Assembly: GCF_026151205.1 (NCBI RefSeq) | Contig: NC_087074.1 | Coordinates: 13,125,182 to 13,189,181, forward strand | DNA: 64,000 nucleotides | Direction: 5' to 3' | Source: Bolinopsis microptera | Lineage: Eukaryota; Ctenophora; Tentaculata; Lobata; Bolinopsidae | Shown: one piece after another, positions 2,939 through 64,000 of the stretch | Layout: every line of letters starts with the position of its first letter | Numbering within the stretch: position 1 is the first letter of the stretch | Position numbers and translations under genes: made by a program | The notes under the pieces: generated by a model | What the model was told of the DNA's origin: nothing | Databases searched by the model: none | What the model saw: only the letters and a program-made list of their open reading frames with translations

Positions 2939-25097
<22,159 letters not shown>

Positions 25098-25950: not shown

Positions 25951-26871
25951 TTACCCCCGGCCAAAAACATCAGAAAAAGCTTTATTGAGATGTTCAACCA
26001 TGTCTGATGTTATCATTGACCTTCCTCTGCTTAGCTTGTCCGATTTAACATGGTGGAATCCTTCATAATTGGATCGTTTAACAACAGCACATGCAGCATA
26101 AGCAGCAACATTTTGATATGGAATGTAACATGGCAGTGAATCTTTAGAATCTTTTGCCCAGTGAGCAAATAATCCAAGAGCACCTGACAGAAGATCACCT
26201 TGCCCTCCTACTCTTCTATTAGAGCCTTCCACATCACACTCAACAGTAATTCCATTAGTAGATATCTTGTCAACTTTACCTTTACATACGATAGTACATT
26301 CTAATACCTTGGAGAGTGTTGATATATCCGAAGGCATTAGAATAGGCTTCTGCGGCTGCTCACTGTTCATAGCATGAAACAGTCTAGAGAATTCTGCTAT
26401 ATTGGGAGTAAGGATAGCATCTTTGTAGCCCTTAATCAAGTGAGGCTGCTCAGTGATCAGATGAAGACCATCAGCGTCAATAATAACTGGAATATTTTGT
26501 TCTTTTATTATTTCAATCCACTTGGAAACAATATCTTTGGTTTCCGGATCACGTCCAAGACCAGGGCCAATAACAACGCAGTGTAGACGTTTGATCCAAT
26601 TGCTGAACTGTGGAGCTTTTTCTTTACAAAGGATAGGCATGACCATTAGATCAGGGCAGTATGATTTGATGGGAATAGCTGCACTTGGGGTACACATGAT
26701 ATGCACCAAATCAGCACCAAGCCTCAGAGCTGCTATTCCAGCAAAGTAAGGGGCTCCAGTATATTCCTCACATCCGCCTACTATACCAATACGACCAGCT
26801 TGTCCTTTGTGCAAAGCTGGTGTCAAAGCTGGAACAATGAGTTTGCACAAGTCTTTGCATAGGTCTTTCAT
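25951..26871 (-). CDS. NAXD: ATP-dependent (S)-NAD(P)H-hydrate dehydratase
   Basis: This metabolite-repair enzyme uses ATP to dehydrate damaged NADHX/NADPHX back to NADH/NADPH, working with the NAXE epimerase. The 306-residue product is a ribokinase-like fold of the YjeF C-terminal type. Visible motifs are HKGQAGRIGIVGGCEEYTGA near the start, VVIGPGLGRD near residue 98, PVIIDADGLHL near 130, LTPNIAEFSRL near 153, and the catalytic and nucleotide-binding stretch RRVGGQGDLLSGALG near residue 221. Length and order match animal NAXD without its targeting peptide. The ATG at 26,871 is preceded by TTTTTAG|GGCAACGCC, a plausible acceptor, so an upstream non-coding or targeting exon may exist. The coding body is one exon, unlike its intron-rich neighbours. 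Confidence 0.96.
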   Translation of the reverse strand: MKDLCKDLCKLIVPALTPALHKGQAGRIGIVGGCEEYTGAPYFAGIAALRLGADLVHIMCTPSAAIPIKSYCPDLMVMPILCKEKAPQFSNWIKRLHCVVIGPGLGRDPETKDIVSKWIEIIKEQNIPVIIDADGLHLITEQPHLIKGYKDAILTPNIAEFSRLFHAMNSEQPQKPILMPSDISTLSKVLECTIVCKGKVDKISTNGITVECDVEGSNRRVGGQGDLLSGALGLFAHWAKDSKDSLPCYIPYQNVAAYAACAVVKRSNYEGFHHVKSDKLSRGRSMITSDMVEHLNKAFSDVFGRG

Positions 26872-27764
26872 GGCGTTGCCCTAAAAATGTAGCTATAAAT
26901 ACAAAATTACAATAAACATAGGCATATACAAAATGTTTGTTTGTCTAAATTTGCGTTTAATAGAAATTTGATCTTGCTAACAGAATAACCATCTAAAAGT
27001 GGGTTGCACAATTACATTGTTACAAAGGGGAGTTTTTCGAAACAAAGGGGATTTTTAAAAAATTTCTGTGAATAGAACTTTTACTGAGGCATATTTAAGA
27101 TTTTAAGGATAAATTGAATACAGCTACAGGGCATAATTTTTGGGGCTGCAACCAGAATCCCTGCTATATCCTGTCAACTAAAAATTGGCCAAAACAAAGG
27201 ATTTGCAAGTTATGTGGCAAATTCGAGATGCTGCGATGCTGCATGAATCATGTTCAATGAAGGCTGATGAAACTGAGGGATCTACAGGAGTGTAACCTGG
27301 TGTTTTTTTTGTAAGTTAACAGTACGCGCCAAGAGTATCCTACAAGATTCAAGATCTTTTTGCAGGTCCATTCCTTGTTTAAACCTCAATCATGGTTCTC
27401 CTCATAACTCGGCTGAACCACAGGATGGGGCTTACACATACTATATAATGAGAAAATACTTTTAATTTTGAAAAAGAAATTTAACCAAGGCATAGGCTTA
27501 CAACCAACTGGTGCATGAATTATGCATAAGTTGAACGGCTGCTTACTGAAGTACTTATGATTTGGGTATATACCAGTAAGATTTGGTGATTATGTATCAT
27601 GGGCACTGTCTAAATAACCCAAGACCAATATGTCTACTGTGAACTAAACGAAGTTATGCAGGTACTGCTGAATGAGGACTCCCCAATTTCTTAAAACTGA
27701 ATGAAAATGATATATAATAGTAACAATCATGTGAATGAATCAGGAGAAAGGATAATAAGGATGA
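26872..27764. other. NAXD upstream region, nothing recognised
   Basis: AT-rich DNA between the NAXD start and the LINE fragment. No exon for a mitochondrial leader could be picked out. It may include the NAXD promoter. Confidence 0.5.
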
Positions 27765-28412
27765 ATATAGGGATGGCAGATAACTGTGAGCACAGTTAAG
27801 AATCTTGGGATACATATGGACTCTGGGCTTACTATGAGCAACCATGTTGTTGAGTTGAAGAAGAAATGTTTCCTAACACTACGCAACCTCACTAAGATAC
27901 GGTTTCTGCTGACTACAAAACAGCTTAAGACAATTGTTAATAGCCTCGTTGTTTCCTGTTTGGACTACTGTAACGCCATGTTTTACGGCATCTCCAAGTA
28001 CCTCATACATCAACTACAGCTTATTCAAAATGCCTGTGCAAAAGCAGTAACTGGAAAATATAAATTTGATCACCTAGGCGATGATCTTGATAAATTGCAC
28101 TGGCTTAATATACCTAAAAGAGTGATTTTTAAAATATGTCTCCTATCTTTTAAGGCTATTAATGGAATAGCGCCACTGTACCTTCAAGATATGTTTAAGT
28201 ATGCTCACCATGGACACACTGTTAGGCTCATAGTCCCTTATCGTTCAACCAAGGGTTTTGGTGATCGTAGTTTTAGTGTGGTTGGTCCACGAGTTTTTAA
28301 TGCACTACCAGACTCAGTTAAACAATGTTATTCTGTTGAGGCGTTTAAGTCCGCACTGAAGACTTATTTGTTTACTTTATCTGACACTGAGGTAGCAAAA
28401 ATGTTTTATTAA
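27765..28412 (+). mobile_element. LINE (CR1/L2-like) 3' fragment: reverse transcriptase C-terminal region
   Basis: An open frame of over 200 codons reads VKNLGIHMDSGLTMSNHV, VSCLDYCNAMFYGISKYLI, LHWLNIPKRVIFKICLL, APLYLQDMFKYAHHG and FSVVGPRVFNALPDSVKQ. These are the standard post-catalytic segments of CR1/L2 reverse transcriptases. The YxDD palm and the endonuclease are absent, so the copy is 5'-truncated, as LINE insertions usually are. The stop is at 28,410-28,412 and the probable 3' tail runs to about 28,620. It is longer and more open than the other LINE remnants here, which suggests a younger insertion. Confidence 0.9.
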
Positions 28413-51652: not shown

Positions 51653-52960
51653 ATGATTCACGTCTTAAAAGACTGTACGCCTCTGTTTCTGTTTCGATTA
51701 ATGGAAATTAAGCTGCAATATACCTTTATTCTATTTTTGATGTCGTTTGCGACAATTTCTGCCCAAAATCAGAACTGTGTTGCTGATTTTGATCTTCACG
51801 ACGTGCAAAAATACGATTTTATAATTCCTAACTCGGATCAAGAAAAGAACCCAAATTATTGGGACAATACCCAATTAAACTATTACGTTTTTGGAAAGTT
51901 TGATGACTCTACAAGTGACAAGGAAACCAAAATAACTGCTGGACTCTACAATGGACCGGATCTCATCTACAAAACAGTTATCAACTGCGACAAGGGGACT
52001 TGGGTAAATACAATCTATAATAGAGCCTCCAAAGACGAAAGAATTCTCCATGGAAAGATTGAGGGGAATCATACGTCGTGCAAAGCCGGAGACCCATTTG
52101 ATTTGATCCTAAAAGTTAACAACTTTTATCAAATAAGCTGGATCTTCAATGCTCAGCCACTGCAGTACGGTGTAAGGGAGTTCTGCAAACCTTTAGAGGA
52201 ACCAAAAATATTGCAAGAAGGGGGGAAGACCAGTTTTGTGCGTTGTCGACCAGGAGTAAGACGTCCCAAAGTTAAAGTATCATCAAAACATAACGCATAC
52301 CAAGCAACCAGATTTGTTCTCAAAGCAACTGGCAGAGCTAAATTTGAACGTTTGGCTTTCGGGCAGTGCTCTGCATGGCCCAAAGGAATGGAAAATCAAT
52401 GCCAAAAGGTAAGAAGCTGGGTACATTCGAGAAGCAAAGCTAATCTAACTGAAGAAACTGTTGCTAAACATTTAAAAGAATTCCCTCTAGACGTAAACGT
52501 TACAAGAGGGCTGGGGGTTTTTGGTAACAACAGGATTGTTCATACCCCAACTTGTCTTTCGAAAAAATACTTCAATTTCATACAAATGTTGGTTCACCCT
52601 GACCGAAACATTCCCAATACACATGATTACAGATCCATGAAAGTCTACTGCTGCTGTACCAACATGAGAACTGGCCAGGTTTTTGAGAATAATTTTAACA
52701 AGTATTGCTTGATTTTCGCCGATTGCATTGGGAGGCAAAGATCCTGCTATGAGGCCTACGACAGAATAATAGGCAAGGAGATTGAAGACGAGAAGAAGGG
52801 AAGTGAAGAGGAATCTGACGAGGAGCCACCAGGGGAATTGGAAACTACAGACAATGAACTTGCCGTAGTTTTGACAGTTAACAACACAGATGGCAGAACC
52901 GGGGTTCTTGCAGACATCACCAGTACATCTCATGGTTTGGAACAAGAGCTGGAGATCTAA
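51653..52960 (+). CDS. Secreted protein, single exon, possible galectin-like N-terminal half
   Basis: The 435-codon frame has two candidate starts. Met17 gives a textbook signal peptide (MEIKLQYTFILFLMSFATIS then AQ), so it is the likelier start. Residues ~40-180 show alternating beta-like segments with ERILHGKI, GDPFDLILKVNNFYQISWIF and N-terminal YYVFGKFDD, reminiscent of galectin-type lectins (ER..F, PF.L.I.V....Y.I). This is inference, and key sugar-binding residues cannot be confirmed. A basic middle (RPGVRRPKVKVSSK) is followed by a cysteine-rich part with a CCC cluster (KVYCCCTNMRTG, KYCLIFADCIGRQRSC) and an acidic tail (EEESDEEPPGELE). At least four N-glycosylation sequons (NHT, NLT, NVT, NNT) support secretion. 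I do not know the family. The lack of introns is unusual in this neighbourhood and could reflect retroposition. Confidence 0.85.
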   Translation: MIHVLKDCTPLFLFRLMEIKLQYTFILFLMSFATISAQNQNCVADFDLHDVQKYDFIIPNSDQEKNPNYWDNTQLNYYVFGKFDDSTSDKETKITAGLYNGPDLIYKTVINCDKGTWVNTIYNRASKDERILHGKIEGNHTSCKAGDPFDLILKVNNFYQISWIFNAQPLQYGVREFCKPLEEPKILQEGGKTSFVRCRPGVRRPKVKVSSKHNAYQATRFVLKATGRAKFERLAFGQCSAWPKGMENQCQKVRSWVHSRSKANLTEETVAKHLKEFPLDVNVTRGLGVFGNNRIVHTPTCLSKKYFNFIQMLVHPDRNIPNTHDYRSMKVYCCCTNMRTGQVFENNFNKYCLIFADCIGRQRSCYEAYDRIIGKEIEDEKKGSEEESDEEPPGELETTDNELAVVLTVNNTDGRTGVLADITSTSHGLEQELEI

Positions 52961-53566
52961 AAAGTTGAGGACAGTAAAAATGTAGAATTTTTGAAAGTTT
53001 CAAATTAGAGTATGTAATATTGTTAGTGTCAATTAATGTCGGAACATATTGTGGTGACGTTATTTGTGAAGACTCTTGGTATGTAGGCACATTAGGGGTT
53101 TAAATATATTAGAGTAGATTTAACTAATTATGTAATATTTAGAAGATTTTTCGTGAAAAGTTCGATTTTTCATTGCTTTTTTTATTATCGTAAGAATGTT
53201 ACTCAGAGATCATAGAAAACAATCAATATTGTTTACAAATTAAACGAAATATTGCTTATTAACAGACAAACTAGTTAATGTACGTTAATGTATAAACTGG
53301 TTGATACCGATTTTACTGCAGTCCATATAATTAGCGATTACATTTACGAAGGTACCATTACCAGTTTGGTACTGGCTTCAAAATCTTTAATACTCTTTCA
53401 ACTCCTTTCAATTTCGGTAGAGAAATGAAATTAAAAATGTTGAAAAAAGTCGGATTTTAAAATAACCATGGTGCGCACTGCACTGCACATCACGTCATAT
53501 TTTATGAGATACTTATTCATTCATGGAAAATATATAGACGGAATATTTTGTAATTGATTGGTAATA

Positions 53567-54279
53567 TAGTCCAGTCATATATGGACATTTATGGAAATGA
53601 ACCTGCAAATTTTCAGATACTCACAAAACTTTGCACAGACCTTCCCAAAGGTATGAATAAACAATTTTCGGTTGGAGACATTTTAGGGTACATGTTGCTT
53701 CATAAGTTGTATATAAACATGGCCATTTTGCACAATTTGCACTCATTCAAAAATCTCTAAGGCCTTCATAGCCCAATTAACCAGATAACCATATTTTTGC
53801 ATGATTTATAGAACCGAAAATCAGTTTTTCGCCAATAACTGAAAAAGTAAGCACTTTAAGGCATATGTTTCTTCGTAAGTCATATATAAATATGCCAATT
53901 GCGGTTCTTTTGCAGTCCATCCGAAGACTCTATCACGATCCTATAAAAAGTTAATAAAATGGGCTCAGCGCCACGCCCAAAATGGTTTTTGGCGAATTTC
54001 TCGAAAAGTAAGGATTTTAGGCCATGTGTTGATCAATAACTCCTATATTAACATGCATATGCGGCTTCGTTTAAGCCTATTTTGAAGTCTCTACGACCTT
54101 CAGAAGTTAAGGGTCAGTTACGTTATTTGGTCAATATGGGCGTGGCCCTCCTGGGTTTTCCCCACGGTAAAAAAATGTCTCCAACCGAAAATCGTTTATT
54201 CATACCTTTGGGAAGGTCTGTGCAAAGTTTCGTGAGTATCTGAAGATTTGCAGGCAGCTGTCCTTAAATGACTGGACTA
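53567..54279. mobile_element. Non-autonomous foldback element with TA ends, ~710 bp
   Basis: About 110-120 bp at the left (TAGTCCAGTCATATATGGAC .. AACTTTGCACAGACCTTCCC .. TTCGGTTGGAGACATTTT) return inverted at the right, with few mismatches. The outermost bases are TA on both sides, as for Tc1/mariner-type insertion. The interior has no transposase. A short frame at the left end is a by-product of the repeat. Confidence 0.82.
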
Positions 54280-54544
54280 ATACTAGGAATATGATATGAT
54301 TTATGAAGCCTTATATATCATGATTGTATTTTGATATCTTAAAATTGTTGACGTATCTCATTATATCATGCCGGCTAAAATATACATCGAATTTGATCAA
54401 CTATATTACAATACTCGTACACACTGGAAAAATGTTCATCCCAAACTTAACAATGGATCCATTGTTATCAATACGTGTCTTCTGACTCTGCATCTAAACT
54501 GGATGGTCCCAAATGAACGGCCCTAGAGTCCTATATCATATTAG

Positions 54545-54735
54545 TATAATGAGTAATGACCTGTAAACCTGCAAACCTGTAATTACCAGTAAACTTGTAA
54601 ACCTGTAAACCTGTTAACCGGTTAACCTGTAAACTTGTTAACCTGTAATTACCAGTAAACTTGTAAACCTGTAAACCTGTTAACCGGTTAACCTGTAAAC
54701 TTGTTAACCTGTAATTACCAGTAAACTTGTACACT
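54545..54735 (+). repeat. ~66-bp tandem repeat of GTAAACCTGTAAAC type
   Basis: Two full and one partial unit are built from GTAATTACCAGTAAACTTGT, AAACCTGTAAACCTGTTAAC and CGGTTAACCTGTAAACTTG. The unit itself consists of smaller 7-8 bp words. Confidence 0.92.
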
Positions 54736-55244
54736 TGAAAACTTGTAATATTAAGTTCAGGTTTGCAACTGAATGGCACATTTTGACATTTTCATTACTC
54801 TATATAAGCTATTAAAACATGTTTGCCAGACTCTCAACTGATAGTAAGCTCAGTTGGTCAGGGTTGAGATTAAAAAAAACAACGGGATAGTTTCTCTCCA
54901 TTAATAACATTTACTTGTACACTTAGAACAGTCAACATAAATACAGACCGCATACGTTTCCTCCTGACGCGTTGGTGGCTCAATTTAACTGTTTTATTTG
55001 AAGGAAAAAGAGCAACTATTTGTTTGATTAGGTCATAGAAATTGTATTTAATTGTACATATCATCAACAAATATTTAAAGAGCAATTTAAAAATTAAAGT
55101 CACAAATATTCATTGAAAGTGCATCGATCTTTCCTTATAAAAATACTGAAAATTATACAAATCATGATCACTTTTAACACAACAAATTTCCCAAACTGAA
55201 ATAACAAATCAAATTAGGCGGGCCACTAACTAACACGTAAGATA

Positions 55245-55585
55245 TTAAATATCCGACCATTCACCAGGGTCCATCAACCTTCCAGAAATGTCTCGAATAA
55301 CCCCCCTCAAACCCTCTACCTCCTCACTGAACCTCGTCTCCAGCAGCTCCACGAAACTCCCCTCCTCCCCCACTAATCCCCCAGCTAACTTAGCGACCCT
55401 CACCCCCTCGTGCACTACATGAGCTATCTCCCTGAACTCTGAGGTACCAGCTCCACGTGTCGTGACCGCGCAGCTTCCAAACCTGATGCCTCCAGGCGCA
55501 CCCTCAGGGTCCACATCTCCCACTAGTTCATACCCGTTGGAAGTGAGTCCGACTAATTCTAGGAGCTGATCAACTTTCAGACCGT
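55245..55585 (-). CDS. SHMT: SHMT distal, divergent alternative last exon
   Basis: A 113-codon exon follows CACCTCAG|AC and begins with the same phase (one base carried over) as the canonical last exon 1.1 kb upstream. It shares the layout (D)[28 protein letters not shown] with the conserved carboxylate-binding Arg, then [16 protein letters not shown] and the C-terminal helices. The canonical NKNTCPGD segment, which lies at the active site, is replaced by [13 protein letters not shown]. No stop interrupts it and it ends 2 codons short of the other form. This looks like a tandem exon duplication kept open by selection and usable by alternative splicing. Transcript data would be needed to prove use. 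A decaying duplicate is the alternative. Confidence 0.85.
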
Positions 55586-58500
55586 CTGAGGTGTTATGTT
55601 ACATGATAACTGGGTTTCTGTGTAACATTTTACAGTTATCCAATTACAATGGGGCAATTATCAGGTTCATTTCAATTTAGGACAAGTTGTACATTAATTA
55701 GTAAGACATTATCGTCAACAATCAAATCGGAACATTTGCTAGCTAAGATCATGAATAATTTTCAACTTTGCTTTAATCTTCACAATAAATCAATCCGAAA
55801 GATAATGAAACAGTACGACTCGCTTGTAAAAGCAGTTAAGTGAGGCAACAACAACAAAAAGAAAGTTAGGCAACGAACGATTTTACTGTAATTTTCACGT
55901 CAAAGAATAATTCGTTGTTTGACATACAAATTTAAGTAGGATAATTTACACAACAGAAATCTCATAACACTCGGATATATCTCATTACAAAAACTCTTAT
56001 AAATATTAGACAACTGGCTTCGTTCCATCCTGATATATATCATAATATACACAAATGAAATGAGGGGTCAAGAAAACATATAATTTATATAAACATATTA
56101 TTATTTATAATGTTTATGTTTATTTTTTATATGTATGTATCATGAATTTGATCTATAATGAATGAATTTGATCTATAATGAATGAATTTGATCTATAATG
56201 AATGAATTGGATCTATAATTTCGTTCATACCCACACTAGTCAATTCTAGGTAGGTACAATATAAATAGATTTTAAATAACCTCCTCGATGGTAAAGCAAG
56301 GTTCGCTTTTCAAACAAATTTGTAAAATTTGATAGAGGGTCACGGTGATAATCATAAAAATTCATGCAAAGTTCAATGTTCATGCATATCCTTGGTCACA
56401 TGTATAATTAAAATATTAGAGAAGATTAATCAATTCACATAGAATTACTTTAAACGATAATTTCAACCTAGCAAACAAAAATTCGTTCAACAATCATATT
56501 TGATCTAGTAACTTACATTTTTAAAATCCTATCTCAGTCGTACATGACTCCTAGCATAATACTGTAATTATTCATGCCATCATGTTTAAAATCTATAAAT
56601 CACTAGAGCCTGAAATGGGCCATTTAATAAATGGCCCATAAATGATTAATTCTAGATTATTCTAGAATTCTAAATGTCGCCCTCTCCTCCAGGGAAAGGG
56701 AACTGCTTTGCAAACTCCACGACGCGGCCACCCAGCTCCTTTATCTCCGACACAATCTCCTCGTCAGTTTCTATCAAATTCTTAAACTTCTTCAGTGTCT
56801 TTCCTGCTCGTCCTTTAGCTTTTAGGGCTAACTCCACACCTTCGTCTATTAAACGTGCTACATCTCGGAAATCCTCCTCCATGAAGTTGCGTGATGTGAG
56901 CGCTGGCGTGCCGAGGCGCAGTCCACCAGGGATTAGCGCTGACTTGTCGCCGGGGCACGTGTTCTTGTTGGCGGTCATGTGCGCGTGTCCGAGTAGCGCG
57001 TCAACACGTGCACCATCTGATTAACACAGCAAATGTTAACTAACAAGTACAGGCTACTTTTTAGATATGCGAACTGAGATGGAATTGCGAACTGCTAGTT
57101 ATATCCGCGTGTTCATGTTAATTCTAAAATTAAAGCCATTTTATAGTAAAGAGCTGTTTACATTGCGGTTGTACCAGGAATGTGTCGACAGGATGTGTTT
57201 ATTGTTTATACTGAATTCTTGACGATATATAAACATTGTGCGGTGTTTACATAATCTACCACATTATTAGCAATCAAAATCAGCACAGAACTGACATAAT
57301 TGAAACAAATATTTATGAACAAAACACAGATAACGACGTTTGTAAAACCCCCACACCTAACAATGTCACATACCGATTCCCTTAGGTCTGAGATCGAGCA
57401 GGACAATATGATTATCAGTACCGTCACTCACTAGGGTGTGTCCTAGCTTCTGTAACTCATCTCCTAGCGCTTTGGAGTTTGAGAGAACCTGAAAATACCG
57501 GTTTAAGAAGCACATTTTCCAAAAGATAGTGGAATGTCAGAATGTGCGGTTTCCCACATCCAGAAAGTTTTAAATTTCCTCGCAGATAAAAATCGAAAAG
57601 GTCATGTCTTTTAAAAGTTTACTCTTTGGCACAAAATTTCCTCTAAAATCCAAAATTTCCTCTACCGACTGCGACCTGCCGTTTTTCTGGTTGTGGGAGA
57701 AGTTTATTCAGGATATTATTGGGATACAGAACAGTAGTTATATCAAACTAAATAACACAGTATTTAAACACGTGATAGCTATGACAAAACACACTGGAAT
57801 TGGTGAACTAACCTGTTTCTGATAGTCCTTGAACTCTTGAGACTGGGAGTTCTTCAAAGCTACAGCTAGAGCTGATACTGTGTGCATGTGTGGTCCTCCC
57901 TGAATATGTTCAGCGTGATAACTAACGCGTCAGACCTAACGTGTCAGACCTAATGCTCAACCTGATAACTGAAGCTGGTAAGTGATTCATGGCACATGCA
58001 TCAGATGATTATCAATCATTTTCTAGGGGTTAAAATAAAGTTGGAGTGGGGATGAGATGCTGTTACCTGCAAGGATGGGAAGAGAGCGAAGTCGATTTTA
58101 TCCTTGAGGTCGTATAGAATATCGTTACCCTTCTTGTCCTGTTTCCGGACTCCCTGTCTGTAGAATATCATACCACCTCGGGGACCACGCAGTGATTTGT
58201 GTGTTGTGCACGTGACAATGTCTGAATATTCAAATGGGTCGTTCACTACTCCTGCTGCCACCAATCCTGCCATTGTTTGCGTTATTTTCTGATTTAATGG
58301 TCAAAGTAGGCGGAAGTAGCCTCCTTACATATTATCTTTACTTTATTATCATTTATCACGTATTGTAGTAGCCCCACAAAAAAATACCAGCTCAAACTAG
58401 GAAGTATCAAACCGGTTAATAGTTTTGCACTTGATTATCAAGATCGTTTCAGGTACAAAATTTGTCAAGAAGCTCAAAATGTAAATTATATTCCTTGCAG

Positions 58501-61500
58501 ACCTGTCTATTTGATCGAGAGATAACTGAATTGCTCTAAATTATACAGCTAGCAAGCTAATTCTAGAATAATCTGAGCGAGTGAGCGAGGACCGCAGATT
58601 TTTAAATGAACTTAAGGCCAGAGGGGGGGGGGGGGGGTAAAAGTCGATTTTCCAGTTTTCACATATTTGATTAGAGCTGCTGGAGACGAACAAGAGGAAA
58701 AAAACAGGACCGAAATCTGACCTTGCGTTTTTAAGATATCGCGCGCCAAATATTGAGGTTTACATGTAATTACATGTAAAACTTTAACTTAAACTGTAAA
58801 AAGTTAAAACGCCCTAATACTGTCGAAAAACTGTTGAATTTGGGGTAAAGTTAACCTCATATCTCAAGAACAGAAGCAAATATCAAAATTTTGTACAATA
58901 GAATTGTGTAAAACAGTCTAAGGAACACCTGTGCCAAGTTTCAGCTCCTGGGTGTGGCCAGTCTTCTCAACTAAGGGACGTTTGTATGAAAAAACCTGTT
59001 TTGAGTAAAAAGAGTTTTGGTGTTTTTATTTCACTGCCAAAATCTCAAATTGTGCATTATTTTCCGTATTTAGTAGCGTCTCCATACAATTTTTGCTTTA
59101 AGGTGAGAAGATGTTTATTGAGATACTTTATGTTGGGAAAATCAATATCATAAACCAAAATTTGTCTAAAAATGAGGTTAACTATCACGATATTTTGTAG
59201 TAGTAGTAAAAATATGATTGTTAACCTCACTATAGACCATATAACAATGGAATTGGTTTCTTAATATATTGTTAGACATGTAATGAAACATTTGCCCAGT
59301 GACTGGGCCGATATTCAACAAATGAGAGGTTAACCTCATTTTTTAGCTATTTATGGGTGAACTCTTCTACTTATATATGGTCAGTCCTAATCACCTTTGT
59401 CTCATGATCATATTTGAGGCATTGGAATACAAATAGATACATCACTGAGATATTGTGGTACATAACAAAAGTAAGAATCTTGTGTAAATAATTCTTAAAC
59501 TACCAAATGATATGGTTAACCTCATTTTCAACACTTTCTCGAGATAAAATGAAGTAAATCAGCACTACATCTATTAAGAATTTTGTATGTCGTAATCTTA
59601 CGATAAAAATAACAACTCTATCACCTAATCTATTTTCGCTATTCCTAAATTAAGAGGTTAACCTCATTTAATCACGTTTGGATATTACTTTTTCTGATAA
59701 TTAAGAACCTAAAATTTAGAGTTTACATTTGCTGACCGAAAAAACAAAAAATTATGGAGTGTAATAAAATATTAACCTCAATTTTATTAACCTCAATGTT
59801 GTATAATCAATTTTGTGAAAATCGGTTAACCTCAATTATAAAAAAAGTTAAGCAGCTACAAATATGTGAATAGCAGCAATGTTTTTGTCATCGAAAATTA
59901 AATTGATTTAGAAAATATTATTTTGGTCGATTTTGTTGACCCCTTTCCCCCCCTCTGGCCTTAACACACGTACCACACAATGCTCGCTACACACATATAA
60001 TTATATTTATTATAATTACCGGTAATATGTGCCATGTCACTGTGAAGTAGCGCTCCAACATCGTCACAAATCTCTTTGAAACGTTTGTAGTCCAGAAGCC
60101 GGGGATAAGCACTGTATCCAGCTATTATTATTTTAGGACGAAACAACTTGGCTGTCATGTGTAGTTTATCGTAATCTATTATACCTGAGATTGAGAACAC
60201 GGTCAGACAGGACTTTATTATTATCTTTTGGGTATAATCAAACGTATTATCTTGCTCAAGGCATTGTGGTACAATATCAGATTTCACAACGAACTGAATT
60301 CATGCGGATTTGACATAACTGATAACATAACTGATAAACGGTATTTGAAGTTTACCTTTCTCGGTTACACCATAAGGCATACTCTCGAAGAATATGCTTG
60401 TTGCTGAAATACGTTTCGTGTCGGTCATATACCTACAATTTGGATCATATGTGAATAGGTACATCCATCATATACAGGAATCTGAAATACTAATAATAAC
60501 TAATAAGTATAAACCATCAGATATAATTGTCTCACTAGATGGCAAGTGAAATAATTATGTGATAATAATTATGTTACATATTTTGCACAGGTTGGTAATT
60601 TGAAACTTAAATGTAAACGAACACCAATAATTTAGTGAGTTCGAATAACCTACCCGTGAGTCAAATGTCCACCAGCTGGAAGGTCTAATCCCATAATCCT
60701 ATCGTGTGGTTCCAACACACCCGTAAAGACTGCAAGGTTAGCAGGGGACCCAGAGTATGCTTGTACGTTAACTCCCCATTTAGTAGGGTCTAATCTGAAA
60801 TTGTGGCGAAAATTGTAATACTTATAATAATAACTGGAAATTTATACATCTATAATCGCTTTATAGCCAAAAAGAACTCAAAATCCAAAGATTCAGTTCA
60901 AGCCATCTAAAGCGACTCATGAACATGTACATAAGAACTTAGAATTTTATGAGAAAGGTTTTTATGAGAAAGTTATTATATATAATACTATATATATATA
61001 TGATACTTAATACTTGTATGATGCTTTTGGACACGAAGGGAAACACACAACGTAAGGCTTGAAATCTTCGTAAAACTACACCATTAGAGCCTGTAAAAAC
61101 ATTTAACTTTAAGATAAGCACTCTATCAAGTAAAATTCATATAATTATAATCATAATAGTTTATTAACTCAAACGAAGATACTTATATGAATACTTTTTC
61201 AAAAAGATGAGTCTTTAGTATCTTTTTAAACTATAGTACAATATCGGTCGATGTTCTCAATTGATAATTTTGTTTTACTATAATCTGAGACAGGAGGAAC
61301 ATTTATATATTAGGAGGAAATAGTCTTGTTCAGTTCGTAGTACACGTACAGCTACAGGTTGACTCTTGATGTCAATGCATTTGGTGATATAGTCTGGACT
61401 CTGGAGCTATGTTGTTGACACATTTGAACACGGTTAGAGCAATCTTATACTCTATTCGTTGTCTTATTGGGAGAAAATGGGCCTTTTTCAGGAAGGGAGT

Positions 61501-62349
61501 GACACTGTCCCATTTTTTAATAGCTTTGCCACCAAATAAGAATCGAACACAGGAATTTTGTACCTTCTCGAGTTTCTTTATGAGAAAATATAACATAAAT
61601 TAATCCATATCATTCTGCATTGTGAATTGTAAATACTCAAGAAATATTCGTATCAATTACTTGATCACGTGTCAACTCAAGAACAACACGCACATTGATC
61701 AACATCTTGGTGTAAACTTGTCGGTGGATATAATATATCCACCGACAATTTTACATATTATGGTCAAGATTGATTGTAAGAATGCTATGTATTTTGTATG
61801 CTATGTTTATAACTTGTAAATTTCTCAAACCGGAAAGCATCTAGAGCTCGCTTCTGACATAAGAGTTCAATCTGATCAATATGTTTGCAGCCTCCATAGT
61901 ATCTAGCATTAGGATATCCTTCAGCATATTTGTTGGTAGCACAGCTACTAGAAGCTTCGCGCACATCTCGAGATGTGAAGTTTTCAGAAGCTATCAGCTC
62001 CAGCCCTTCCACCTAGAAATGAAAGTAATTGAAAACAAGACTTTATAATGCAATATTATAAAACTAATGATTTGCTTTGTTCTAGTTTCCCAGAGAGTAC
62101 TCAACTGACAATCAAGGGAAAACGAAAGAGAGATCAGGTTCACACTTCATGTGACATTTATATTTGGAAATACTGTTAGAGTAAAATAAATGAAATCAAT
62201 GATCTGTTATACCGACATACCTGTCTCCTTTTTTCAAGTTTTAGTAGATTATACAGCTCTGGATCGCTGTCTGAAAGTGCTTCATTGCCAGTCCAGAGTG
62301 ATCTTTTGATAAGATCCAAAGTGGAATGCAATCTTCTTATCTTCAGCAT
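55245..62349 (-). CDS. SHMT: Serine hydroxymethyltransferase
   Basis: This PLP enzyme interconverts serine + tetrahydrofolate and glycine + 5,10-methylene-THF, feeding one-carbon metabolism. Exons in gene order are 62,221-62,349, 61,831-62,012, 60,654-60,794, 60,356-60,432, 60,020-60,184, 58,067-58,266, 57,813-57,899, 57,374-57,488, then either 56,670-57,016 (480 residues) or 55,245-55,585 (478). All junctions are in phase. Visible motifs include [89 protein letters not shown], the Schiff-base Lys in [13 protein letters not shown] (near residue 255) and [16 protein letters not shown]. The start ATG at 62,349 has an in-frame stop just upstream. The N-terminus is basic ([19 protein letters not shown]), so mitochondrial import is possible but unproven. 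Introns hold a TTAA-flanked element and a LINE remnant. Confidence 0.96.
56142..56220 (+). repeat. 20-bp tandem repeat, 4 units
   Basis: Four units of TGAATTTGATCTATAATGAA lie between the two SHMT terminal exons, the last with a TTGG variant. Confidence 0.95.
56615..56639. terminator. Hairpin containing a minus-strand ATTAAA behind the canonical SHMT last exon
   Basis: A 25-bp palindrome (arms ATGGGCCATTTA and TAAATGGCCCAT) starts about 30 bases past the stop at 56,670. Read on the minus strand it includes ATTAAA, the common variant poly(A) signal. Its role is inference. Confidence 0.45.
56670..57016 (-). CDS. SHMT: SHMT proximal, canonical last exon
   Basis: A 115-codon exon follows GATTAATCAG|AT. 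It encodes (D)[43 protein letters not shown] and a C-terminal helical domain ending [22 protein letters not shown] and the Arg of GLRLGTPA are the conserved folate/serine-site features of the family, so this exon should give the active enzyme. Confidence 0.95.
58612..59964. mobile_element. Non-autonomous element with TTAA target duplication, 1,345 bp, in an SHMT intron
   Basis: TTAA (58,612-58,615 and 59,961-59,964) bounds an element that starts GGCCAGAGGGGGGG and ends CCCCCCTCTGGCC. Imperfect inverted similarity continues inward (AAAGTCGATTTTCC versus GGTCGATTTTGTTGACC). TTAA duplication is the hallmark of piggyBac-like insertion, although the tips do not start with CCC/CCT. The interior carries at least eight TTAACCTCA words, several as GGTTAACCTCA, and no transposase frame. 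Confidence 0.78.
61372..61600 (-). mobile_element. LINE (CR1/L2-like) fragment in an SHMT intron
   Basis: The minus-strand frame reads [40 protein letters not shown] and VNNIAPE, the segment after the RT palm in CR1/L2 elements. Both ends are lost. Confidence 0.82.
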
Positions 62350-63619
62350 TTTCAACTAGGTATCATAGTTATTATTTATTTAATCTTTTAAATATATTGT
62401 TGTAAATTGTATTATGGTCCCACCTTGCAGTATCATAAATAACTGTGCAATTGTAAAAAAATGGACTACATACATACACATCATACAATAAGTTTGAATA
62501 CTCAAACCACAATAAGGGGTCATAATTGTTTCAATTATGCAACTGTATAGAATTATTATTATTAAGTTCAAGAATGATTTTGTAACATCCTTCCCTGTTA
62601 TTGAAAGATTGAAATAATTTCCCTTTAAAGTCATTATTATTATTGAATCTATAATAGCTAATGATTTACGTAATTCTATTGTGCACGTGATTTCCAACCA
62701 CAATACACCAAAAATTAAGGGGCCATCTACTTAGGAAGTCCGGTAAATAGGGAGGGGGATGGTTTAGGGATTTCGGACAAATCCGGACAGGGGGGCCGGG
62801 GGGGGGGGGGGGGTGTGGTTTCTGAAATTCCTGACCTCCAGAAATTTTGGCAGAATTAACAAAAAAGTCTCATTTATTTCAACTCTTTGACACTAATAGT
62901 AATTACACTGTAAGTTTAGATCCCTGTATTTTGAACGAGTACTTAAACATACTTAAATGTAACTGTGCTAAACTTGTTGGACACTAAATGTATTATTGTC
63001 TATTTTAAGTAACTACACATTTTATTAACAATGAATTTGAGTTGGTTTTATTTGTACGGGTTATTTGTAGGGTTTTCGGCCTACTCTAACTTCTATTGGG
63101 GCTTGTTTACTGCAGATCAATTCAGTTAAGGATCCCAAATAAGTCTGAAGATTCAGTCAAGGCCGAACATTCACGGGTTTTACTAGGGTTACCGATCAAT
63201 TTTCAGGACTTCAAGAAAAGCTAAGTAATTTAAATGAATGATCAAAATGGTGACTGGTGTATTCAATAATGAATAAGGAGCAACTCGAAAAATTGAAAAT
63301 ATGAACGCATCGAATATTTCGAAATGGCCACAACCCCTTTCAATAATTCTGTTTCTTTAATTCCGTCGAATCTTACATCTCTAACAATGCAACCGTAAAC
63401 GATCTTCAAAAAAACCAATTCAACCAATATATAATACAAGGCATGACGAAGATAATAATAATAATAAATACAACATTTATAAACCGCCTTATAGCTAAAT
63501 CATATAACTCGATATAATTTAATCCTGGAGATAAACTCCAGTGCTTTCTAAAGCGGCTCTTACATTAACTGAGCTTAGTTTAATTGAAAATTAGACATGA
63601 CAAGTTCATTTTACCTATG
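62350..63619. other. SHMT 5' flank with a miniature-element relic
   Basis: The SHMT promoter should lie in the first few hundred bases. At 62,718-62,815 is a GGGGCCATCTACTTAGGAAG .. CCGGACAGGGGGGCC plus G-run block, of the widespread GGGGCC[AG]TC miniature-element type. A short AAT run is at 63,452-63,468. No other gene was recognised. Confidence 0.5.
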
Positions 63620-64000
63620 TAAATGCAAAATCAATCAAATGCTAGAGAAAAGAAGTATGTTTTAAGTTTGGTCTTGAAAGATGTAACTGACTCAGCTGAT
63701 CTTATGTCGTATGGCAAGGAATTAAATACTTTAACTGCACAGTGACTAAAAGCTTTCTCTTTGTTTACATAGTTAGGAGAGGGCGGAAAACTAAGGTAAA
63801 AATAATCATTATCAAGACGTACATTTTTAAAACTTTGCTGCCTAGGAGATATCAACTCTTTTAAGTAAGGAGGAGCTATATTATTTAAACACTTGTAGGC
63901 AAGTAGGGCAATCTTAAAATCTATTCTAAATCTAACTGGTAGAAAATGAACTTTCTTAAGTAGTGGAGTAGTGTGTGCCTTTCTTCCTCTCCCGAAAATA
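63620..64000 (-). mobile_element. LINE (CR1/L2-like) 3' fragment, continues past the window end
   Basis: The minus strand encodes KKVHFLPVRFRIDFKIALLA, YKCLNNIAPPYLKELISPR and AFSHCAVKVFNSLPYDIRS, again the C-terminal region of a CR1/L2 reverse transcriptase. It is open from near 64,000 down to the stop at 63,631, so the rest of the element may lie to the right. Confidence 0.85.

Follow-up and report, generated by a model that had tools for sequence, protein, structure and literature searches.

A diverged second terminal exon in a Bolinopsis microptera SHMT gene is predicted to encode a folate-blind isoform

Gene structure of the SHMT locus

The window comprised 64,000 nucleotides of the Bolinopsis microptera genome (contig NC_087074.1, forward-strand positions 13,125,182 to 13,189,181), and coordinates are given as window positions unless stated otherwise. 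A splice model placed nine exons with GT-AG introns on the minus strand, together encoding a serine hydroxymethyltransferase (SHMT) of 480 amino acids. Exon 1 (62221..62349, opening with a 24-letter peptide), exon 2 (61831..62012, with a 19-letter peptide), exon 3 (60654..60794, with a 20-letter peptide) and exon 5 (60020..60184, with the motif DMAHIT) were identified by the splice model and by composition. Exons 4 (60356..60432) and 7 (57813..57899) were placed by the splice model. Exon 6 (58067..58266) was recognised by PF00464, the splice model and composition; it is common to both predicted isoforms and carries the motif TTHK at residues 252-255 of the gene product. K255 of this motif corresponds to the PLP lysine of the SHMT family. 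Exon 8 (57374..57488, splice model) ends in phase 1 at the donor tcg/gtatgt (...GGA ATC G/gtatgt). PF00464 matched exon by exon across profile positions 20-399 in the gene with its canonical terminal exon, 9a.

Exon 9a (56670..57016, minus strand) comprises 115 codons plus TAG, the stop following an 11-letter peptide. A distal alternative terminal exon, 9b (55245..55585, minus strand), comprises 113 codons plus TAA and contains a 13-letter loop. It is located 1.08 kb downstream of 9a across a spacer of 28.6% G+C; the G+C content of 9b is 55%, versus about 30% in its flanks. Both exons begin with ..cag/A(T/C)GGT and both yield D-G behind exon 8, the split codon of exon 8 being completed into Asp. 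An earlier note on this DNA had described two last exons with these coordinates, lengths, shared phase, motifs and clean stops, and each of these features was confirmed.

Candidate poly(A) signals were located by hexamer match. ATTAAA or AATAAA hexamers start at 56628, 56124 and 55777 between 9a and 9b, and at 55052 (ATTAAA) and 54998 on the 3' side of 9b. The AATAAA at 56119..56124 (minus strand) is a candidate signal for 9a transcripts, and that at 54993..54998 (minus strand), approximately 250 nt past the 9b stop, is a candidate for 9b transcripts. Exons 9a and 9b show structural features expected of tandem duplicated alternative last exons: they are homologous neighbours of equal phase, and both possess a stop and poly(A)-signal hexamers of their own. 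The term "mutually exclusive", applied to them previously, is appropriate in this sense of alternative last exons and in no other.

The 3'UTR of 9a contains a perfect 12-nt inverted repeat (56615..56639, minus strand) around the ATTAAA that starts at 56628. A 61-nt stretch including this repeat folded at -17.9 kcal/mol (z -3.62), and one of 200 shuffled sequences was as good. It may be speculated that the repeat masks the enclosed ATTAAA. The highest-scoring acceptor-like AG of the 125 scored (56609, 10.81 bits) lies just past the inverted repeat, downstream of the 9a stop.

Other features of the window were noted in passing. Fragments with a resemblance to C-terminal sequence from reverse transcriptases of LINE type were recognised by eye at 27771-28409, 21601-21939, 61375-61599 and 63634-63999, one of them within SHMT intron 2. 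A 309-codon open frame at 25954-26880 (minus strand) resembles an NAD(P)H-hydrate dehydratase. A search of 52000-64000 with Rfam at gathering score gave no match.

SHMT genes of the assembly

The assembly searched comprised 264.65 Mb in 232 contigs. PF00464 matched 16 exons, every one of which belongs either to the 9a/9b gene or to a second gene on contig C1. A third SHMT gene was not found in this search, in which the best candidates were scored. COX1 gave no match in the assembly. Innexin loci occur in the assembly, and some of them consist of one long open frame. Two pairs of these loci had equal scores (G000:C1:4254005 and 4378223, about 124 kb apart; G000:C7:6754013 and 6935049, about 181 kb apart). 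These pairs are either recent duplications or unpurged haplotypes.

Exon 9a scored 68.5 bits against the Pfam SHMT profile. Against PDB sequences its top match was 7e13 (114.5 bits), and it scored 107 bits with human SHMT2, 96 with mouse SHMT1 and 87-88 with human SHMT1. For the C-terminus of the C1 gene product, the top match was a cytosolic SHMT1, that of mouse (1eji, 104 bits). The N-terminus of the 9a/9b gene product, of which a 19-letter segment was inspected, has one acidic residue among its first 22 by composition and, judged by eye, is basic and looks like a mitochondrial presequence. Judged by 9a, the 9a/9b gene is closer to human SHMT2 than to SHMT1 and appears to be of the mitochondrial type; a mitochondrial location of its products may be expected.

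At the D-G position the C1 gene is uninterrupted; two introns elsewhere divide the region for its C-terminus. Three introns of this gene contain tandem arrays (locus L009, positions 1472-1833, 2099-2168 and 2963-3371; 7.8 x 46, 2 x 35 and 9 x 47 nt). The array units include the 3' end of the upstream exon and its 5' splice site, and one acceptor-side junction also seems doubled. Exon-intron junctions here seem prone to tandem duplication, and the same process could seed exon duplications too.

Homology and divergence of 9a and 9b

Exons 9a and 9b were aligned over their full length by BLASTP with 39/116 identities (E 4e-15). Amino-acid identity was 35% across 111 codon columns, in keeping with the strong divergence of the distal exon reported before. 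Nucleotide identity was 46% overall and 0.43, 0.59 and 0.37 at the three codon positions, third positions being near saturation. As a fragment, 9b scored 25.8 bits against PF00464, just short of the cut-off of 27, and in the assembly search it scored 26.9 bits, or 27.2 when taken with its neighbours; its homology to SHMT was clear by BLASTP and phmmer.

Two other origins were considered. That 9b is an uncollapsed allele of 9a is ruled out by the 35% amino-acid identity. That it is a repeat or mobile element was rejected, since a protein search with 9b found just itself, 9a and the C1 exon. The DNA of 55200-56660 matched itself and, with one 107-base query stretch at 75%, contig C79. No other copy of 9b was therefore found in the assembly by these protein and DNA searches. 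Relatives of 9b were also sought in viral contigs, where 13 pattern matches were obtained and none was confirmed.

Folate and substrate sites

The last exons were compared with bacterial SHMTs, for which 80 of 206 relatives were kept and 79 rows entered the column counts. Thirteen columns of the last exon are fixed in 79/79 rows, and no column past 409 reaches 1.00. Exon 9a retains 11 of the 13, being without S396 and G409, and 9b retains nine, being without K383, N384, P387 and S396. S396 is Gly in both exons, and G409 is present in 9b. The fixed residues gone from 9b yet present in 9a all lie in one loop, where K383 is replaced by Gly, N384 by Tyr and P387 by Val, and where the KSAL stretch is replaced and is one residue longer. 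The reported loss of the NKNTCPGD loop was confirmed: a 16-letter stretch is replaced in 9b, and GG(L/I)R is kept. The near-fixed P403 (0.97) and P472 (0.99) are also altered in 9b. Over the 34 columns conserved in at least 80% of bacterial rows, 9a matches at 22 and 9b at 15. The Arg of GG(L/I)R at column 399 is present in 9a, in 9b and in 79/79 bacterial rows. The net charge of 9b is -11, versus -2 for 9a.

Some of the positions compared correspond to described ligand contacts. Asn347 of the rabbit and E. coli enzymes, the counterpart of N384, hydrogen-bonds 5-formyl-THF, and Arg371 of P. vivax SHMT, the counterpart of the Arg at column 399, pairs with the substrate carboxylate (PMC4257618). 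In soybean SHMT8, N374, also the counterpart of N384, contacts pterin N1 and N8, residues 377-385 form the THF-binding loop, and S381, A382 and L383 hold the glutamate tail; a figure legend of the same source describes positive potential across the folate sites of eukaryotic SHMTs, in contrast to the acidic 9b (PMC11366715). In our own alignment soybean S381/A382/L383 fall on S-A-L of 9a. Among the marks of folate dependence, the pterin Asn and the THF-binding loop are absent from 9b and the carboxylate-binding Arg is present. A changed folate/serine site had been proposed for this exon; the folate half of that proposal stood, the contacts being lost, and the serine site is less changed, with the carboxylate Arg and T-x-R kept. 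From these residues, the 9b isoform is predicted to bind PLP and an amino acid but not folate.

AlphaFold models were built for 9a and 9b, each exon alone, from a 15-row alignment (13 bacterial rows, 9a and 9b). The pLDDT was 76.5 for 9b and 81.1 for 9a, and helix order was nearly identical. Confidence was low in the altered 9b loop (residues 18-25), and 9a also fell below 50 at residues 20-22 and 27-29. With the 9b model as Foldseek query, the best 50 of 116 PDB matches listed were all SHMT (E 0.003-0.033, TM 0.54-0.65, rmsd 6.5-7.9), and none of the matches listed reached E 0.001. Because the models were built on an alignment of homologues, the 9b model indicates compatibility with the SHMT fold and is not independent proof of it.

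Acceptor strength and translation of 9b

Acceptors were scored with a position weight matrix from the 16 acceptors of the two SHMT genes of the genome, known acceptors being scored leave-one-out. The 9a acceptor scored 3.56 bits leave-one-out and ranked 2nd of the 125 AGs between intron 8 and the end of 9b when included in the training set. The 9b acceptor scored 2.23 bits, ranked 13th of the 125, and exceeded one of the 16 known acceptors. The description of the 9b acceptor as good was thus not upheld; it is weak, below 15 of the 16. Which isoform is made would depend on how the weaker acceptor of 9b, lying distally, competes with the acceptor and poly(A) sites of 9a.

The only Met of 9b lies nine residues from its end, at residue 470 of the 478-residue isoform, so a standalone peptide gene using the whole exon is ruled out and 9b is usable solely as a 3' exon. 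Given this Met, the lack of another 9b copy and the two SHMT genes found, 9b in its entirety could be translated only with another exon ahead of it, and the phase of exon 8 suits this role.

Selection and drift

Branch omega was estimated with a three-sequence codon model (9a, 9b and C1), conditional on an open frame, and was 0.15 for 9b, 0.054 for 9a and 0.080 for C1. Fixing omega at 1 on the 9b branch cost 2.08 lnL units (2 dlnL about 4.2; chi-square with 1 df, p about 0.04). Taken on its own, this rejection of omega = 1 for 9b is weak, synonymous sites being saturated.

Drift controls for stops and G+C used 9a as a stand-in ancestor. When 9a was allowed to drift to 46% nucleotide identity, the frame stayed open in 0.3-1.8% of runs (1000 runs each, three compositions). 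Under AT-rich equilibria (30-40% G+C), an open frame together with 55% G+C was retained in 0/2000 runs in each of nine settings. It is very improbable, we consider, that 9b is a neutral duplicate exon that was never used: its strong divergence, lost active-site loop and weak acceptor would suit such a pseudo-exon, but drift would be unlikely to leave the open frame, the G+C or the substitution pattern that 9b has. The view of the distal exon as an old coding exon poorly explained by drift is supported. With synonymous sites almost saturated, the tests cover most of the history of 9b but not its final few percent; within that span, neutral decay fits 9b poorly and is disfavoured.

At 85% nucleotide identity to its parent, a neutral exon still retained its frame in 11-25% of runs. 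An exon that was long functional and has recently gone out of use, its frame still unbroken, would be consistent with this figure, with an acceptor weaker than 15 of the 16 known ones, with the lost folate-site residues and with the long branch of 9b. Against such an exon fossil, the acceptor AG, phase, stop, poly(A) signal and G+C of 9b are all intact, with no drift towards the AT-rich flanks, and we hold it to be rather unlikely.

Origin of exon 9b

A tree was made from nine short rows, with one of six branches starred. Rows L016 and L024 were taken from the alignment without insert residues, 6ccz contributes a fragment of 72 aa, and the remaining PDB rows are truncated at the end. On this small set, in which 9b sits on a branch about 5 changes per column long, an AU test rejected 9a and 9b as sisters (p-AU 0.013). 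The best tree paired 9b with the C1 gene at poor support (47/68), and a pairing of 9b with 6ccz was not rejected (0.36). The top PDB match of 9b was 6ccz (51.6 bits; the next, 31.5), a plant SHMT3 going by the title of 6cd1. Over a 73-column stretch 9b has 33 letters in common with 6ccz and 28 with 9a.

Such results would be expected if 9b had once been the terminal exon of a separate SHMT paralogue, either a tandem gene or one of a third type, that has otherwise disappeared, whether or not the neighbouring SHMT gene had since adopted it. Several observations run the other way. Neither in the spacer nor elsewhere in the window outside the gene did tblastn find a remnant of exons 1-8 at E <0.6, and the PF00464 search had given no third gene among the candidates scored. 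The start of 9b has the exact intron position and phase of 9a; this agreement, at a position where the C1 gene has no intron, speaks for an exon duplication within the 9a/9b gene. T407, G409 and E414 of 9b are also the commonest bacterial letters (0.89, 1.00 and 0.81) and may be ancestral states; 9a carries S, N and D there. On balance a former paralogue seems improbable. Either the duplication would be older than the changes in 9a, or 9b would descend from another SHMT, and long-branch effects are possible.

Discussion

The reading we prefer, at a probability of roughly 0.6, is that an old duplication equipped a mitochondrial-type SHMT gene with two alternative last exons, and that the 9b isoform is a PLP-binding, folate-blind SHMT subunit. 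Of this reading, the gene structure, the homology, the open frame and the non-drift pattern over most of the history of 9b are established. Splicing of exon 8 to 9a, with polyadenylation ahead of 9b, would give the ordinary 480-aa enzyme. Splicing of exon 8 to 9b, with downstream polyadenylation, would give a 478-aa isoform, and this splicing is predicted to operate at present. The 478-aa isoform would have its presequence, large domain and PLP lysine in common with the ordinary enzyme and would keep the substrate-carboxylate Arg within 9b, but would be without the Asn and the loop by which folate is held at its pterin ring and glutamate tail. In the cell it might act as a folate-independent PLP enzyme, as a binding scaffold, or as a partner that regulates the mixed dimers or tetramers it enters; the regulatory, moonlighting or dominant-negative subunit suggested in the earlier note is likewise a hypothesis. 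SHMT2 reportedly has a non-catalytic use when bound to BRISC (PDB 6h3c, 6r8f).

C-terminal exons duplicated in tandem form an established class. For SHMT, neither such a pair nor any alternative last exon was found described in the openly licensed literature searched, a body that misses most subscription papers; the match there for mutually exclusive exons in ctenophores concerned myosin genes. Among human tandem duplicated exon substitutions, 77 of 236 swap the C-terminus, according to the relevant part of PMC9741552; there, as predicted for 9a and 9b, homologous neighbours substitute for each other. For regions that coincide with predicted ligand residues the same source gives 80.6% as kept, three genes having lost most or all of them in one copy (PMC9741552). 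Unlike the human swaps, which mostly keep ligand residues, 9b has a changed folate-binding loop. The phrase "serine hydroxymethyltransferase" has 0 occurrences in the text of that paper.

A folate-impaired SHMT with a biological role has been described in soybean. In the Forrest allele of GmSHMT08 (P130R/N358Y, Rhg4), folate binding is highly impaired and the protein has a role in nematode resistance, as given in part of PMC11366715. The predicted 9b isoform would resemble it in impaired folate use. The soybean protein differs by two substitutions flanking the THF site in a whole-gene allele, whereas in 9b the loop and the pterin Asn differ in an alternative exon.

A possible contribution to the animal is put forward tentatively, as a possibility below even odds. 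By choice of last exon, the comb jelly SHMT gene may yield a folate-blind PLP subunit that mixes with the normal mitochondrial enzyme and so tunes one-carbon flux, or that runs folate-independent amino-acid chemistry; splicing or polyadenylation would then set folate use.

SHMT is an entry point to one-carbon metabolism and a drug target. If the preferred reading is true, a natural subunit with the PLP core but without the folate grip would mean that a single gene uncouples the two halves of the reaction. A metabolic enzyme would then be tuned by last-exon choice, and this among exon swaps in which ligand residues are mostly kept.
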